A program made the position numbers and the translations under genes. Below, in pieces: positions 4,950 to 13,226 of a DNA stretch of 64,000 nucleotides. Within the stretch, counting starts at the first letter, position 1. Every line of letters starts with the position of its first letter. Under the pieces are notes generated by a model. The model ran no database searches. It was not told the DNA's origin and was given only the letters and a program-made list of their open reading frames with translations. This DNA is from Pseudarthrobacter sp. C4D7 (GTDB lineage Bacteria; Actinomycetota; Actinomycetes; Actinomycetales; Micrococcaceae). The stretch covers positions 124,001 to 188,000 of the forward strand of contig NZ_JABFMW010000004.1 of the NCBI RefSeq assembly GCF_013359725.1. The letters are read 5' to 3'.

Positions 4950-5199
4950 AGGAGGTTCATTTGCGATTCCGTGCAATGCCTTGCCGCCGGAACGGAGGCA
5001 GGACGCAGCACAGACTTCACTATGTTAGTGCATTTGAACCCGGCAGGCGATTCGTACTCGACCCAAGGCTAGTGTCCGCAACGACAGTGCAGCAGGGCGG
5101 CATGCCTCCATGTGGAAAACCCGGCCATCCGAGCCCCACTACCGCGGCCTTCCCACCGCCCAATGGAGCCACGCCGCCACAGTGAGGCCCGTTACCTGA

Positions 5200-5230
5200 T
5201 TGTGATTCGGGCGTTCCCATCGTGTACGGT
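5200..5230 (+). promoter_or_regulatory. Possible promoter for riboswitch-GH16 transcript
   Basis: A TTGTGA at 5200-5205 and TACGGT at 5225-5230 (a TANNNT-type -10) are spaced 19 bases, or 17 if GTGATT (5202-5207) is used as -35. The position just upstream of the riboswitch makes it plausible; the match is weak. Confidence 0.3.
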
Positions 5231-5262
5231 CTACCGGGGCCGCCCCCAGCCGGCCCCAGTCC

Positions 5263-5423
5263 CGGCTGCCGCCCAACTCTGCCGCTCCGTGACTGACACC
5301 AGGTTCCAGGCAGAGACGGAGGACCCAAGCGTCCCGGGCACGGCCAGGCGCCTGCCCTTGGGGTGAAGCCGCCACGCGCGGCCGGATGGCCTCATTCGAA
5401 CCCGACAGCTAACTCCGCAGGCG
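5263..5423 (+). ncRNA. ydaO-yuaA type c-di-AMP riboswitch
   Basis: The leader of the GH16 gene carries the conserved landmarks of the ydaO (c-di-AMP) riboswitch in order: a GCCGCC arm with CAACTC near 5267-5279, GGAGGACCCA at 5318-5327, TTGGGGTGAA at 5358-5367, and the hallmark 3' segment CGAACCCGACAGCTAAC at 5397-5413, closing with GCAGGCG at 5417-5423, which can pair with the 5' CGCC arm. In actinobacteria this class usually turns off cell-wall hydrolase genes such as rpfA when c-di-AMP is high. Here the ribosome binding site (GAGAGG, 5426-5431) follows directly, and the controlled gene is a secreted glycanase. Confidence 0.92.
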
Positions 5424-5442
5424 ATGAGAGGTTCACTTCCGC

Positions 5443-6549
5443 ATGCCCGCATTCCCCAATGGCAACGCCACACCGGCGCACCATCACCACACTGAGACAG
5501 AATCTTCCCGTTCAACCCGGACACGGGGGTCCGCAGGCCAGGTCCGCGCACGCCGCCGCTGGCCGCTGGCTGCCGGACTTGCCGCAGCAGTCCTTGGCGC
5601 GGGTTCCCTGGGCCTTGGCCTGGCCAACGGCGACGAGGCTCCGGCGGTATCCCGAGTGGCCAGCGCCACCGACGCCGGCAGCAGCGCGCCGGCCCAGGCG
5701 CCGGAGTCCGCGCCCGCCCCGGCCCCGGCACCCGTCCCCGCAGCCGAACCTGCTCCCGCACCCGCCGCTCCCCCTGCTGCGGCTCCCGCTCCGGCAGCAG
5801 CACCCGCCCCTGCCGCGCCCGCTCCCGCTGCGGCGCCGGAAACGCCCATTGCCGTAGCACCTGCCGCGGCCCAGTTGGCCAACAGTGGTGCGCCTGCACC
5901 CACCGGAGTCCCCGGGAACTGGACCATGACCTTCGCGGACGAATTCAACGGTGCCGGTCTGGACGCCGCGAAGTGGTCCGGGTGCTGGTTCTCCCCCGGC
6001 TGCGGAACCATGAACAAGGTCTCCACCAGCCCTGCCAACGTCTCCGTGGCGAACGGAAACCTGTCCCTGACCCTCAGCTCATCAACCACCGGAGCGCTGG
6101 TTTCGACCAACCCGAAGGGCGGCGCACGCCCGGGCTTCCAGTTCACCACCGGCTACGTTGAAGCCCGCATCAAGTTCCCGGGCAATGCCAACGGGCTCTA
6201 CAACTGGCCCGCCTTCTGGACCACGGGACAGTCCTGGCCCACCACCGGCGAGAATGACATCGCCGAGGTGCTGCAGGCCAAGATGACCGTGAATTACCAC
6301 TCCGGTTCGGGCTCCCACAACCAGGGCGGCGTGGGTGGCAACTGGGCCAACGAATACCACACCTTTGGTTTGCACAGGATGGCCAACTCCTCCGACGTGT
6401 ACTTCGACGGCGTGAAGGTCAAGTCCTACCCCACCGACGACGGAAACGCCCCGCAGTACATCGTGCTGAACGTCGGCGCCTCCTCCACCAATCCGGCCTA
6501 CGGCGCTCCGTCCCAGGTGATGGTGGACTACGTCCGCGCCTGGCAGTAG
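5443..6549 (+). CDS. Secreted GH16 family glycoside hydrolase
   Basis: 368 residues: a His-rich N-terminus, a membrane/signal segment at about 41-62 (RWPLAAGLAAAVLGAGSLG), a long Ala/Pro linker (about 70-150), and a GH16 jelly-roll domain from about 160 to the end (NWTMTFADEFNGAGLD at its start). The catalytic strand reads GENDIAEV, matching the family pattern ExDxxE. GH16 enzymes cut beta-1,3/1,4-glucans or galactans; substrate unknown. It is controlled by the c-di-AMP riboswitch just upstream and ended by a strong terminator, so it is a single-gene unit at the left edge of the EPS locus. It may trim EPS or wall-linked glycan. A second GH16 enzyme is at 12396. Confidence 0.88.
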   Translation: MPAFPNGNATPAHHHHTETESSRSTRTRGSAGQVRARRRWPLAAGLAAAVLGAGSLGLGLANGDEAPAVSRVASATDAGSSAPAQAPESAPAPAPAPVPAAEPAPAPAAPPAAAPAPAAAPAPAAPAPAAAPETPIAVAPAAAQLANSGAPAPTGVPGNWTMTFADEFNGAGLDAAKWSGCWFSPGCGTMNKVSTSPANVSVANGNLSLTLSSSTTGALVSTNPKGGARPGFQFTTGYVEARIKFPGNANGLYNWPAFWTTGQSWPTTGENDIAEVLQAKMTVNYHSGSGSHNQGGVGGNWANEYHTFGLHRMANSSDVYFDGVKVKSYPTDDGNAPQYIVLNVGASSTNPAYGAPSQVMVDYVRAWQ

Positions 6550-6570
6550 CAGGCCCCGCACCGGGGAGAA

Positions 6571-6607
6571 AAGGGCGACGGCGGGACCTCCCGCCGTCGC
6601 CCTTTTT
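6571..6607 (+). terminator. Strong terminator after GH16 gene
   Basis: A perfect 15-bp stem: AAGGGCGACGGCGGG (6571-6585), loop ACCT, and CCCGCCGTCGCCCTT (6590-6604), followed by TTT and preceded by AAAA, so it may work in both directions. It insulates the GH16 gene from the downstream GT4 gene. Confidence 0.93.
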
Positions 6608-6669: not shown

Positions 6670-7863
6670 ATGAAGCTCCTGTACGTGACTGAAAGCGTGC
6701 CCAACCGGGACCCGGAACTGGGCGACGGAAGCTCGATGATCCCGTATGAAGTGATCCGCCACCTCCCTCCCGACGTCGCGGTCACGCTGTTGACCTTCAC
6801 GGGCCCTGTACCTGTTCCGCCAGAGATCAGGGACCGCTGCGACGCCGTGTACGAACTGGCGCCGCGGGAGGAGTTTTCGGCCTTTGCCAGGTCCCTGGGC
6901 GGCCTTGCCGGGCTGGGGAAACACCGGCGGTCCACCCCATCTGCCCGTGCGGCAGCCGCCCGCTTGTCCGCCGACCGGGATGCCACACTGATCCACGGCC
7001 CCCACGCCCTTTTCCTGTCGCACTGCGCCACCGGGCCTTTGGTCCTGCAGACAGTGGACCCCTGGTCCATCCGGGCGGGAATGGACACCGCCATTGCCCG
7101 GACCTTCCGGCCCGCCTACCGGCTCCGCGAACACTTGGCCGCCCGCGCTGAACGGCAACTTCCGTCCCGGGCCAGGCTCCTTACGGTGGGAGCCCGGGAC
7201 GCGGCGGCCTGGTCCGCCGCCCTGGGCAGGGCGGTCACCAGCATCCCCAACGGAACGGCAGCCGCCGGTGCCCGGCGCCGGGAGCGGGATGCCCCTGTGG
7301 TGTGCTTTGCCGGCAGCCTGAACTATGCGCCAAACGTGGACAGCGCCACCGTGCTGGTCAACAGGATCGCGCCGCTGGTGTGGCGTGAGGTGCCTGGCGC
7401 ACGTTTCGTGATTGCCGGGCGGCGCCCCACGCCGGCGGTCCAGGCGCTGGCCGGACCGCACGTGGACGTCCTGCCCAACGTTCCCTCCATCCTGGAGGTA
7501 TTCCAGGAGTCGGATGTGGCGGTCTTCCCGGACGAGCACGGCGTGGGCATCCGGAACTCCGTTCTGGAGGCCCTCGCCGCGGGGCTGCCCGTGGTGGCCT
7601 CGCCGGTGGCCGCGAGGGAGCTTCCTTCCCACCCCCTGCTGGCGGTCCTGGACAGCGAGGAAGCACTCGCCCGCAAAGTGGTGGAACACCTCACCGCGCC
7701 CGGACGTCCACAGGATCCACCCCCCGGCGCGGCGGCGGGACCTGCCGGAGCCGCAGTCCGGACCTGGGACACCGTGGCGGCCGAATACCTGGCGGAAGTC
7801 CAGGCGGCCATGTCAGGCTCAACCCCGGCGGGGGAGCTCACCCGGACGAACCGGCAACCATGA
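6670..7863 (+). CDS. Glycosyltransferase, GT-B fold (GT4-like)
   Basis: 397 residues. It opens KLLYVTESVPNRDPELGDGS, with the glycosyl-acceptor lobe first, and the donor-binding lobe holds PVVCFAGSLNYAPNVDSA (about 205-225) and VFPDEHGVGIRNSVLEALAAGLPVVAS (split by the E(x7)E-like donor motif, about 280-310). This matches GT4 retaining transferases that add a sugar to a lipid-linked glycan at the inner membrane face. It overlaps the following flippase by 4 bases (ATGA), so the two are co-translated. The start ATG at 6670 is chosen from the -10 spacing and lack of upstream Shine-Dalgarno. Confidence 0.85.
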   Translation: MKLLYVTESVPNRDPELGDGSSMIPYEVIRHLPPDVAVTLLTFTGPVPVPPEIRDRCDAVYELAPREEFSAFARSLGGLAGLGKHRRSTPSARAAAARLSADRDATLIHGPHALFLSHCATGPLVLQTVDPWSIRAGMDTAIARTFRPAYRLREHLAARAERQLPSRARLLTVGARDAAAWSAALGRAVTSIPNGTAAAGARRRERDAPVVCFAGSLNYAPNVDSATVLVNRIAPLVWREVPGARFVIAGRRPTPAVQALAGPHVDVLPNVPSILEVFQESDVAVFPDEHGVGIRNSVLEALAAGLPVVASPVAARELPSHPLLAVLDSEEALARKVVEHLTAPGRPQDPPPGAAAGPAGAAVRTWDTVAAEYLAEVQAAMSGSTPAGELTRTNRQP

Positions 7864-9314
7864 CGTACGCGCCGGGGGAATTGGAGCGCAAGGGCGTCAG
7901 GGGAGCCCTGTGGCAGGGACTGGCCTTCGCCTCGGGCAGGGTGATCGTCCTGGTGACCACGGTGGTCCTGGCACGGCTCCTCTCACCCGAGGAATACGGC
8001 CTCGTAGCGTTGGCCCTCGTCCTGATGGCCTACGCCGAAACCATCGCTGACGCCGGCGTGGGACAAGCCCTGGTCTACCTGCCCAAGACACCGGTCATCG
8101 CCAGGTCGGCGCTGCTGCTCTCCGTTGCTCTGGGCGCAGTGCTTGCCGTGGCGGCCATCCTCGCCGCCGATACGGTGGAGGACCTCCTGGGGCTGGACGG
8201 CGTGGCGCCGCTGGTTCAGGTGCTGGGGATTTCCGTGCTGGCCACCGCGTGCGGCGCCGTCCCGGAAGCCATCATGCGCCGGGACCTGAAATTCAGGCAG
8301 CTCACGGCGGCTCCGGTCCTGCGCGCCGCCACCATGGGGACGGTGACCCTCTACCTGGCCTTCACGGGCCACGGAGCCTGGTCACTCGCCGTCGGAACGG
8401 CTGCCGGGTCCGTGGCCTATGCCGCCACCTGTTGGTTCCTGGTCCGGCACGAGGCCCCCTGGCAAATCTGGCGGGTCAGCCGCAGCGCCATCAGGGAAAA
8501 CGTCCGCTTCGGCGCGCCGGTGGCCGGCAGCACCATGCTGGCCCGGGCGATCTTCGACGTCGACTACCTCGTCATCGGCATCGTGCTGGGCGCGCACGCG
8601 CTGGGCCTTTACACCCTGGCCTTCAGGCTTCCCGAGGCCCTGATCCTGAACGTCTTCTTTGTCTTGTCCACTGTCCTGTTCCCCCTCTATACGCAGGTCC
8701 GCGGCGACCGGCAGCGGCTGCGGGACGGCTACCTGAAGAGTGTCACCGTGCAGGCGCTGTACGGCATTACCGCAGGTGTGGGCCTGGCCGTGGTGGCGCC
8801 CGTCCTGGTCCCGGTCCTGTTCGGGCAGCAATGGGAGGAATCGGTCACTCCCCTGGTGTTCCTTGCCCTGTACGCGGCCGCCCGTTCCCTCGGCGCCGGA
8901 GCCAACGACGTCTACAAGGCCATGGGCCGGCCCGGCCTGTCCATCTGGATCTCCGTGGTGCGCCTGGTGGTGCTCCTCCCGGCCCTGGTCTTCGCCACCC
9001 GGTGGGGCATCGTGGGGGTAGCCTGCGCCCAGATGGTGGTGGCGGTAGTCTTCGCGTTCGGCATGCAGGCGGTAGCAGCCAGGGTCATGGGGACCAGGAT
9101 GCGCCGGCTGATGCGCGCCGCGCTCCCCGGCTTGGTGTGCGGCGCCGCCGTCGGCCTCGTGGGCCTGCTGAACTTTGCCCGGCACGCCTTGGGGCCCGTC
9201 CCCACGCTGGCGGTCATGGTGGTTGCCGGAGTAGCCGCCGTGTACGCCGTACTGCGATTCGGCTACCGGGGCCTCCACGACGAGATCCTGGGGCTTTTCC
9301 GGCACAAGAACTAA
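7860..9314 (+). CDS. Polysaccharide flippase (MOP/Wzx-like)
   Basis: 484 residues with about 12-14 hydrophobic segments. N-terminal KGVRGALWQGLAFASGRVIV and the segment LSPEEYGLVALALVLMAYAE are typical of the Wzx/RfbX branch of the MOP superfamily, which moves undecaprenyl-linked oligosaccharides across the membrane. It follows the GT4 gene with a 4-base overlap and ends at a hairpin shared with the convergent kinase gene. A second flippase is encoded at 32277, so the locus may export two different repeat units. Confidence 0.88.
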   Translation: MTYAPGELERKGVRGALWQGLAFASGRVIVLVTTVVLARLLSPEEYGLVALALVLMAYAETIADAGVGQALVYLPKTPVIARSALLLSVALGAVLAVAAILAADTVEDLLGLDGVAPLVQVLGISVLATACGAVPEAIMRRDLKFRQLTAAPVLRAATMGTVTLYLAFTGHGAWSLAVGTAAGSVAYAATCWFLVRHEAPWQIWRVSRSAIRENVRFGAPVAGSTMLARAIFDVDYLVIGIVLGAHALGLYTLAFRLPEALILNVFFVLSTVLFPLYTQVRGDRQRLRDGYLKSVTVQALYGITAGVGLAVVAPVLVPVLFGQQWEESVTPLVFLALYAAARSLGAGANDVYKAMGRPGLSIWISVVRLVVLLPALVFATRWGIVGVACAQMVVAVVFAFGMQAVAARVMGTRMRRLMRAALPGLVCGAAVGLVGLLNFARHALGPVPTLAVMVVAGVAAVYAVLRFGYRGLHDEILGLFRHKN

Positions 9315-12395: not shown

Positions 12396-13226
12396 TCACG
12401 GTGTGTAGGCATATTGGGCCACCCAATCAACCTGCAGGTGCCCGTCGGTGCCGGCGGCGGGAAAGTCCGCCTTGGCGTCGTCTGCGGTTTCCACCTGGAG
12501 CGTCCAGCGCATGGGCGTGTCAGGCACACCCCTGGGTTTGGTTGTCTGGTCCACCAGCTCGTCGTCCAGGAACCACCGGACCAGGCCGGGCTTCCATTCG
12601 ATCGTGGCAACGTGCCACTGACCCGCGCGGGCCTTGGAGTACGTCTTGTCAGCCGGATCGAAATCCATCCCGTCTGTGGTGCGGGTCCCCTTGATCGCAG
12701 AGTTACCGTAAAGGGATCCATCCAGGGCCCCTTCTGGCCAATCGATTTCCCCTTCGTTCCAGTCGTCGCTGGAGGGCCAGAGGAGGAACGCCATCTTGTA
12801 GCCGGGAATGGCGTCGTACCGGAACCTGACCGAGTACCGTCCGTACGTCTGGCCCGTGTAGCCGAACGGAATGACGCTTGCCACCCGGGGCCTGTCGTTC
12901 GAGTAGTGGAGATGGAAATCGAGGTAGCCGTCATGGACCGACAGGACGTCGTCCGGGGTGTAGGTGCCGAAGCCCGAGGAGTCGGAGAAATCGGAGTAGC
13001 CGCGCATGTCAGGCCCGTACACCTGTCCCACCGCCCCCAGGGGGGCGGGGACATCGAAGTCCTGCACCATGGTCTGCCGCCAGGACGGCAGGTCCCCTTT
13101 GGGGGCGCCGCTGTCCTTAACCGAATCGGCGTGGAGTGCCAGGAGGGCGACTCCGACAATGGACAACGACGTCACCGTCACAAGCGACAGCTGGTACATC
13201 CGTCCGCTATTTTCCCCAGTCAGCAC
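12396..13226 (-). CDS. GH16 family glycoside hydrolase, membrane-anchored or secreted
   Basis: 276 residues with an N-terminal hydrophobic segment (LVTVTSLSIVGVALLALHA, about 14-32) and a GH16 domain containing NEGEIDWPEG, the ExDxxE catalytic pattern. The GTG start (13224-13226) is preceded by GAGG and overlaps the upstream membrane-protein gene by 20 bases; an ATG nine codons later is possible. Located inside the minus-strand glycan operon, it may cut or transglycosylate the polymer made by this cluster, controlling chain length or release. It differs in sequence from the riboswitch-controlled GH16 at 5443. Confidence 0.85.
   Translation of the reverse strand: MLTGENSGRMYQLSLVTVTSLSIVGVALLALHADSVKDSGAPKGDLPSWRQTMVQDFDVPAPLGAVGQVYGPDMRGYSDFSDSSGFGTYTPDDVLSVHDGYLDFHLHYSNDRPRVASVIPFGYTGQTYGRYSVRFRYDAIPGYKMAFLLWPSSDDWNEGEIDWPEGALDGSLYGNSAIKGTRTTDGMDFDPADKTYSKARAGQWHVATIEWKPGLVRWFLDDELVDQTTKPRGVPDTPMRWTLQVETADDAKADFPAAGTDGHLQVDWVAQYAYTP

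Follow-up and report, generated by a model that had tools for sequence, protein, structure and literature searches.

A candidate translational c-di-AMP riboswitch on a GH16 glycanase gene beside an EPS cluster, probably gained within an AggPromo-type control-and-export cassette

Actinobacterial c-di-AMP riboswitches have been described as nearly all residing on cell-wall genes (PMC9960051), and the locus considered here raises the question of what such a leader does ahead of a GH16 glycanase gene at the edge of an EPS cluster, and how the gene came by it. A cmscan search of the window (the whole 64-kb stretch of Pseudarthrobacter sp. C4D7 DNA that was analyzed) returned RF00379 (c-di-AMP, ydaO/yuaA) as its sole Rfam match, located at 5287-5435 on the plus strand and extending over the full model (1-134) with 58.8 bits and an E-value of 4.6e-11; the gathering score, the curated cut-off for this family, is 38 bits. 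The original prediction had called this leader a ydaO-yuaA riboswitch and proposed a covariance-model search as the check, and both the significant match and the two motifs quoted at that time, CGAACCCGACAGCTAAC at about 5396-5412 and GCAGGCG at 5417-5423, agree with it. By every feature testable in its sequence, the leader belongs to the established RF00379 class of c-di-AMP riboswitches. The gene that follows (5443-6549, plus strand) matched PF00722 with an E-value of 3.5e-11, consistent with the GH16 target that had been proposed. The genome encodes a diadenylate cyclase (DAC) domain, the predicted ligand synthase, and contains five RF00379 switches, among which the GH16 leader scores highest. 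The other four precede genes for secreted wall-type enzymes (NlpC/P60, M23, LysM-NlpC/P60, and AggPromo). On contig C64 of this genome, the c-di-AMP switches L002 and L003 lie in tandem ~1.1 kb apart, each heading a separate wall enzyme gene, one for NlpC/P60 and one for M23.

Comparison with 26 related leaders, 27 in all, placed the aptamer at 5270-5423 (plus strand). P1 is formed by CGCC (5270-5273) and GGCG (5420-5423), P2 by CTCTGCC (5277-5283) and GGCAGAG (5309-5315), and P3 by 5316-5321 and 5413-5418; hairpins pair 5368-5372 with 5378-5382 and 5384-5387 with 5394-5397. These pairs were intact in 96.8% of the cells of the 27-leader comparison, compared to 36-46% in slid controls, and four of them displayed two-sided changes. 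Rfam's placement of P1 and P2, starting at 5287, was ruled out by the same comparison; the model misplaces both helices because the P2 loop of the GH16 leader comprises 25 bases. The extent of 5263-5442 given earlier fits better than Rfam's 5287-5435, the true P1 beginning at 5270. For RF00379 annotation, match starts are unreliable in leaders with such a large P2 loop, as seen at 5265-5315 of the window and in its relatives. MFE folding of the leader alone gave no signal (z +0.86) and is uninformative because the aptamer contains a pseudoknot; the evidence for the riboswitch is the covariance model and the comparison. Ahead of the aptamer, a hairpin read from the sequence (5236-5257, plus strand; GGGGCCG at 5236-5242 with CGGCCCC at 5251-5257) has counterparts preceding P1 in related leaders.

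Directly 3' of the aptamer, in the sense orientation, a Shine-Dalgarno (SD) sequence and an ATG are found in all 13 genomes with a switched GH16 gene. In the window, the SD is GAGAGGU at 5426-5432 (plus strand; core GAGG at 5428-5431), an element kept in 13/13 of these leaders, and the ATG is at 5443. The ribosome-binding site had been placed 3 bases past the last stem; its closeness to the stem is confirmed and the count is corrected, in that GAGAGG (5426-5431) starts 2 bases after P1 and the GAGG core starts 4 bases after it. The loop CCUC at 5390-5393 (plus strand) is the predicted pseudoknot partner of the SD, with 95% of cells paired over the 27 leaders. The solved ydaO structure includes a pseudoknot at this loop-tail position (PMC5393176), and loop and tail are complementary, by our own reading, in the ydaO sequence printed there. 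For 158 distinct leaders, the mean loop-tail complementary run was 4.89 bp, compared to 4.28 bp when the tails were shuffled (sd 0.05, maximum 4.43), and 0/1000 shuffles attained the observed value for M23 leaders alone. Within the GH16 leaders alone, the pseudoknot is conserved, not covarying (210 of 1000 shuffles were as high); the CCUC/GAGG match is kept in 11 of the 13, the exceptions being L009 and L010, where GUUG could pair instead with CAGC or CAAC, a shift that would leave the SD partly free. Family-wide, the covariation of loop and SD speaks for translational control as the general mode of action of these switches, one that in the open-access literature has so far been proposed from a single Corynebacterium case. 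There, the Corynebacterium glutamicum nlpC switch represses at the level of translation, with a proposed CTCC-GGAG pseudoknot that covers the ribosome-binding site (PMC9960051); both the RF00379 class and the idea of a loop-SD pseudoknot are thus already published. The geometry and loop-SD complementarity of the GH16 leader would fit a translational OFF switch of that nlpC type. Judged from sequence, translational repression through a loop-SD pseudoknot is the most likely mechanism for the GH16 switch. High c-di-AMP would fold the aptamer, stabilize the CCUC loop/GAGG pseudoknot, hide the SD, and block GH16 translation, and at low c-di-AMP the SD would be accessible and the enzyme would be made; here we infer the ligand, the OFF direction, and the pseudoknot block.

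The original prediction allowed for control of translation as well as transcription. Its translational part is favored, the SD lying in the aptamer's own pseudoknot, and its transcriptional part is not: the gap from P1 to the ATG is only ~20 nt, too short for an intrinsic terminator, and a terminator consensus scan found none between P1 and the GH16 start codon. A genuine aptamer that chiefly affects transcription or the stability of the mRNA, instead of masking the SD, would have precedents in the Bacillus subtilis ydaO switch, which works by transcription termination, and in Streptomyces coelicolor rpfA, for which loss of the switch sequence raised transcript levels (both reported in PMC9960051). 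We consider this account unlikely for the GH16 leader in view of the short gap, the conservation over 27 leaders of the pseudoknot that contains the SD, and the translational action of the C. glutamicum nlpC switch (PMC9960051). It is hardly credible that the leader is a functionless, decaying relic. An A-C mismatch at the terminal pair of the window's P3 might suggest decay; however, this end pair is broken in 10/27 leaders overall, the leader core is near-invariant across the 13 genomes, and the window's switch is the top-scoring of the genome's five.

The GH16 gene encodes a predicted secreted protein of 368 residues, in which an Ala/Pro-rich linker follows the N-terminal export region and the catalytic domain is encoded at 5905-6546 (plus strand). 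The export module (5443-5652, plus strand; ~70 residues) bears out, at the level of sequence, the earlier claim of secretion. The catalytic domain carries an intact ENDIAE motif, with E270 and E275 (protein numbering) as the predicted catalytic residues; its E, D, and E do not vary among 36 aligned sequences. The closest PDB folds to the AlphaFold model (pLDDT 89.4) were laminarinases or endo-beta-1,3-glucanases and other GH16 enzymes; laminarinases such as 4crq, 5wut, and 2hyk have the fold and the ExDxxE catalytic motif in common with the window's protein, but share just 21-26% identity with it, so the fold does not name the substrate. A cell-surface polymer with beta linkages is the enzyme's probable substrate.

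To the right of the GH16 gene, a glycosyltransferase gene (6673-7863, plus strand) and a Wzx-type flippase gene (7860-9314, plus strand) form the edge of an EPS cluster that continues with further glycosyltransferases, a sugar-phosphate transferase, a Wzy-type protein, a rhamnosyltransferase, and a WecG-type transferase; the left flank carries rpsF, ssb, and rplI. The location at an EPS-locus edge that had been claimed for the gene is thereby upheld. Between GH16 and the glycosyltransferase gene lies a strong terminator-like hairpin with a U run (6568-6607, plus strand; -40.5 kcal/mol, z -7.15), which apparently insulates the gene from its EPS neighbors, so the switch seems to act on GH16 only and to leave EPS synthesis outside its control. 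A consensus terminator scan did not pick up this hairpin, and a similar one was found 3' of GH16 in 11/11 orthologous loci inspected. Assignment of the leader to the rpsF/ssb side was considered and dropped, as rpsF/ssb were not found nearby in L011-L014, yet the glycosyltransferase and wzx genes were present.

Homologue searches with the GH16 catalytic domain identified close orthologues in 12 other genomes (77-96% identity), and the leader, whose absence from close relatives had been envisaged as counterevidence, was present upstream of all 12, with RF00379 scores of 53.6-70.8 bits. Among 20 GH16 paralogues with 50-69% identity, RF00379 was found in 0/20 within the flanks examined. In a GH16 tree, the distribution of the switch is explained by a single change, on a branch that is itself weakly supported. 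RF00379 is present in 67 of 81 sampled family genomes, where it mostly precedes genes for M23 or NlpC/P60 peptidases or for AggPromo-type proteins; among the sampled family leaders with a readable ORF, none outside the GH16 clade precedes a GH16 gene. AggPromo leaders are widespread in the family, whereas GH16 leaders are confined to one clade of the sampled genomes. One paralogue, L037 on contig C3 of the window's own genome, has 54% identity, a different signal peptide, and no riboswitch. In Pseudarthrobacter sp. Fe7 (L007), the reading frame of the switched GH16 gene seems to be broken by a frameshift that falls between the parts for export and catalysis (leader ATG to 4001), reflecting either a sequencing error or a pseudogene.

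Upstream of the leader, a putative MtrA box, CGTTACC-TGAT-TGTGATT (5190-5207, plus strand), has two repeats with a 4-base spacer and fits the published consensus, a direct repeat of cG(T/A)nA(C/T)c with a 4-base spacer (PMC6265350). The box is conserved across switched GH16 and AggPromo leaders, and the genome has an MtrA orthologue (NF040689, 393.8 bits). The fit to the consensus and the presence of MtrA suggest that GH16 may share dual MtrA/c-di-AMP control with wall enzymes; the C. glutamicum nlpC operon is also under MtrAB (PMC9960051). A promoter element, TGTACGGT, with the -10-like TACGGT (5223-5230, plus strand) occupies the same position in GH16 and AggPromo leaders and is conserved in both, and was not reported by a sigma-70 consensus scan. 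The promoters of the two groups have GTTAC-N5-TGTGA followed by TGTACNGT and then the hairpin before P1. The genome contains this pattern of box and promoter at exactly two sites, one ahead of the AggPromo gene and one ahead of GH16 (reversed control, 0); it occurs in 72/101 genomes of the genus, and each of eight compared sites was just upstream of an aptamer.

The likeness to AggPromo genes extends over leader and coding start. GH16 leaders have a mean similarity of 72% to AggPromo leaders, compared to 64% for NlpC and 59% for M23 leaders, and the GH16 and AggPromo leaders group in a leader tree with moderate node support (0.77-0.94), in which the automatic class labels wrongly assign L007 and several Pro-rich proteins to NlpC. 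When the N-termini of 13 GH16 proteins were aligned by hhalign with AggPromo N-termini of the MSEFNDQ type, the probability was 97.7% (E 1.8e-12), whereas no match was obtained to M23 or NlpC/P60 N-termini. This homology is plain to see in L011-L014 but weak for the window's protein, the N-terminus of which has diverged; in unswitched GH16 paralogues, the signal peptides are simple and unrelated to these N-termini. The AggPromo domain was identified through NCBIfam (NF052397), with no Pfam match and only spurious PDB matches, and the protein is presumed to be a wall enzyme. As far as the sequences indicate, the simplest reading is a chimeric GH16 gene in which AggPromo promoter, switch, start codon, and export module are joined to a GH16 domain. 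GH16 would thus have gained the entire cassette (MtrA-like box, promoter, aptamer, SD, start codon, and export region) from an AggPromo-type gene, a direction of transfer suggested because AggPromo leaders spread more widely, and would thereby have joined a c-di-AMP regulon of secreted wall-type enzymes. We assign a probability of roughly 0.7 to the reading that a translational OFF switch for c-di-AMP acts on a secreted GH16 endo-glycanase and was gained as an AggPromo cassette. With less assurance, we lean toward the broader proposal that the whole control-and-export cassette moved from a wall-enzyme gene to a glycanase beside an EPS cluster, bringing the cutting of EPS or beta-glucan into the c-di-AMP program.

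The AggPromo likeness might instead reflect shared selection by the same regulators and export route, or a transfer in the reverse direction, given that aptamer constraints are common to all c-di-AMP leaders, that export regions are alike in composition, and that the leader-tree support is moderate. We regard this as quite unlikely, since the likeness is specific to AggPromo and not found with M23 or NlpC/P60, reaches beyond the aptamer into promoter and hairpin, and is accompanied by different, simple signal peptides in the unswitched paralogues and by family-wide AggPromo leaders against GH16 leaders in one clade. It is quite possible that GH16 is unrelated to EPS and cuts foreign beta-glucan (fungal or plant) or a wall-linked polymer, the EPS genes being mere neighbors: laminarinases are its structural neighbors, the terminator-like hairpin parts it from the EPS genes, L008 has a switched GH16 without the glycosyltransferase and wzx nearby, and the remaining switch targets in the genome are wall-type enzymes. 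Against this, the two genes adjoin the switched GH16 in every locus reaching far enough except L008, even with a different left flank, and a second GH16 gene (12396-13226, minus strand), without a riboswitch in the Rfam search of the whole window, sits inside the same EPS cluster. The polymer that the switched GH16 cuts is perhaps the EPS made by the adjoining cluster, and a connection with matrix turnover is plausible; activity on glucans from outside or on wall-linked polymers has almost the same likelihood.

With the ydaO/yuaA (kimA) class, the GH16 leader has core sequence, helices, and loop-tail pseudoknot in common, and it differs in its GH16 target, in the SD serving as a pseudoknot strand, and in lacking terminator room before the start codon. 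The C. glutamicum nlpC switch is alike in its secreted envelope enzyme, absence of a terminator, and proposed loop-SD pseudoknot (PMC9960051), but nlpC encodes a peptidoglycan peptidase heading an operon, whereas GH16 is a glycanase followed by a terminator-like hairpin, with EPS genes beside it. Switch-controlled AggPromo_Cterm (NF052397) genes of the Micrococcaceae have the same promoter, MtrA-like box, aptamer, SD, and export region, their catalytic domain being replaced by GH16 in the window's gene. RpfA acts on peptidoglycan, whereas the substrates of GH16 enzymes are polymers of the beta-glucan type. The S. coelicolor rpfA switch is otherwise similar, being actinobacterial, on a secreted glycan-cleaving enzyme, and without a canonical terminator (cited in PMC9960051). 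No c-di-AMP riboswitch with a GH16, glucanase, or EPS target was found in the open-access literature, and subscription papers may list one; as far as the open-access literature shows, the GH16 target, the EPS neighborhood, and cassette capture by gene fusion are new. Here, in one clade with at least 13 genomes, the gene predicted to be controlled is a glycanase gene at an EPS locus, and c-di-AMP can thus be linked, in a testable way, to the turnover of extracellular polysaccharide in soil actinobacteria. If true, cassette capture would show how a riboswitch can acquire a new target, with gene fusion through the coding start as a means for riboswitches to spread.

Switch-controlled ORFs in L061, L141, and L182 resemble low-complexity secreted or surface proteins without a recognizable enzyme domain. 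In L055, L211, L219, L222, and L223, leaders with the same cassette precede Pro/Ser/Thr-rich proteins that start with MSPTMDQPRRAQ and have, by eye, no obvious catalytic domain; these proteins are a possible further new target of the switch.
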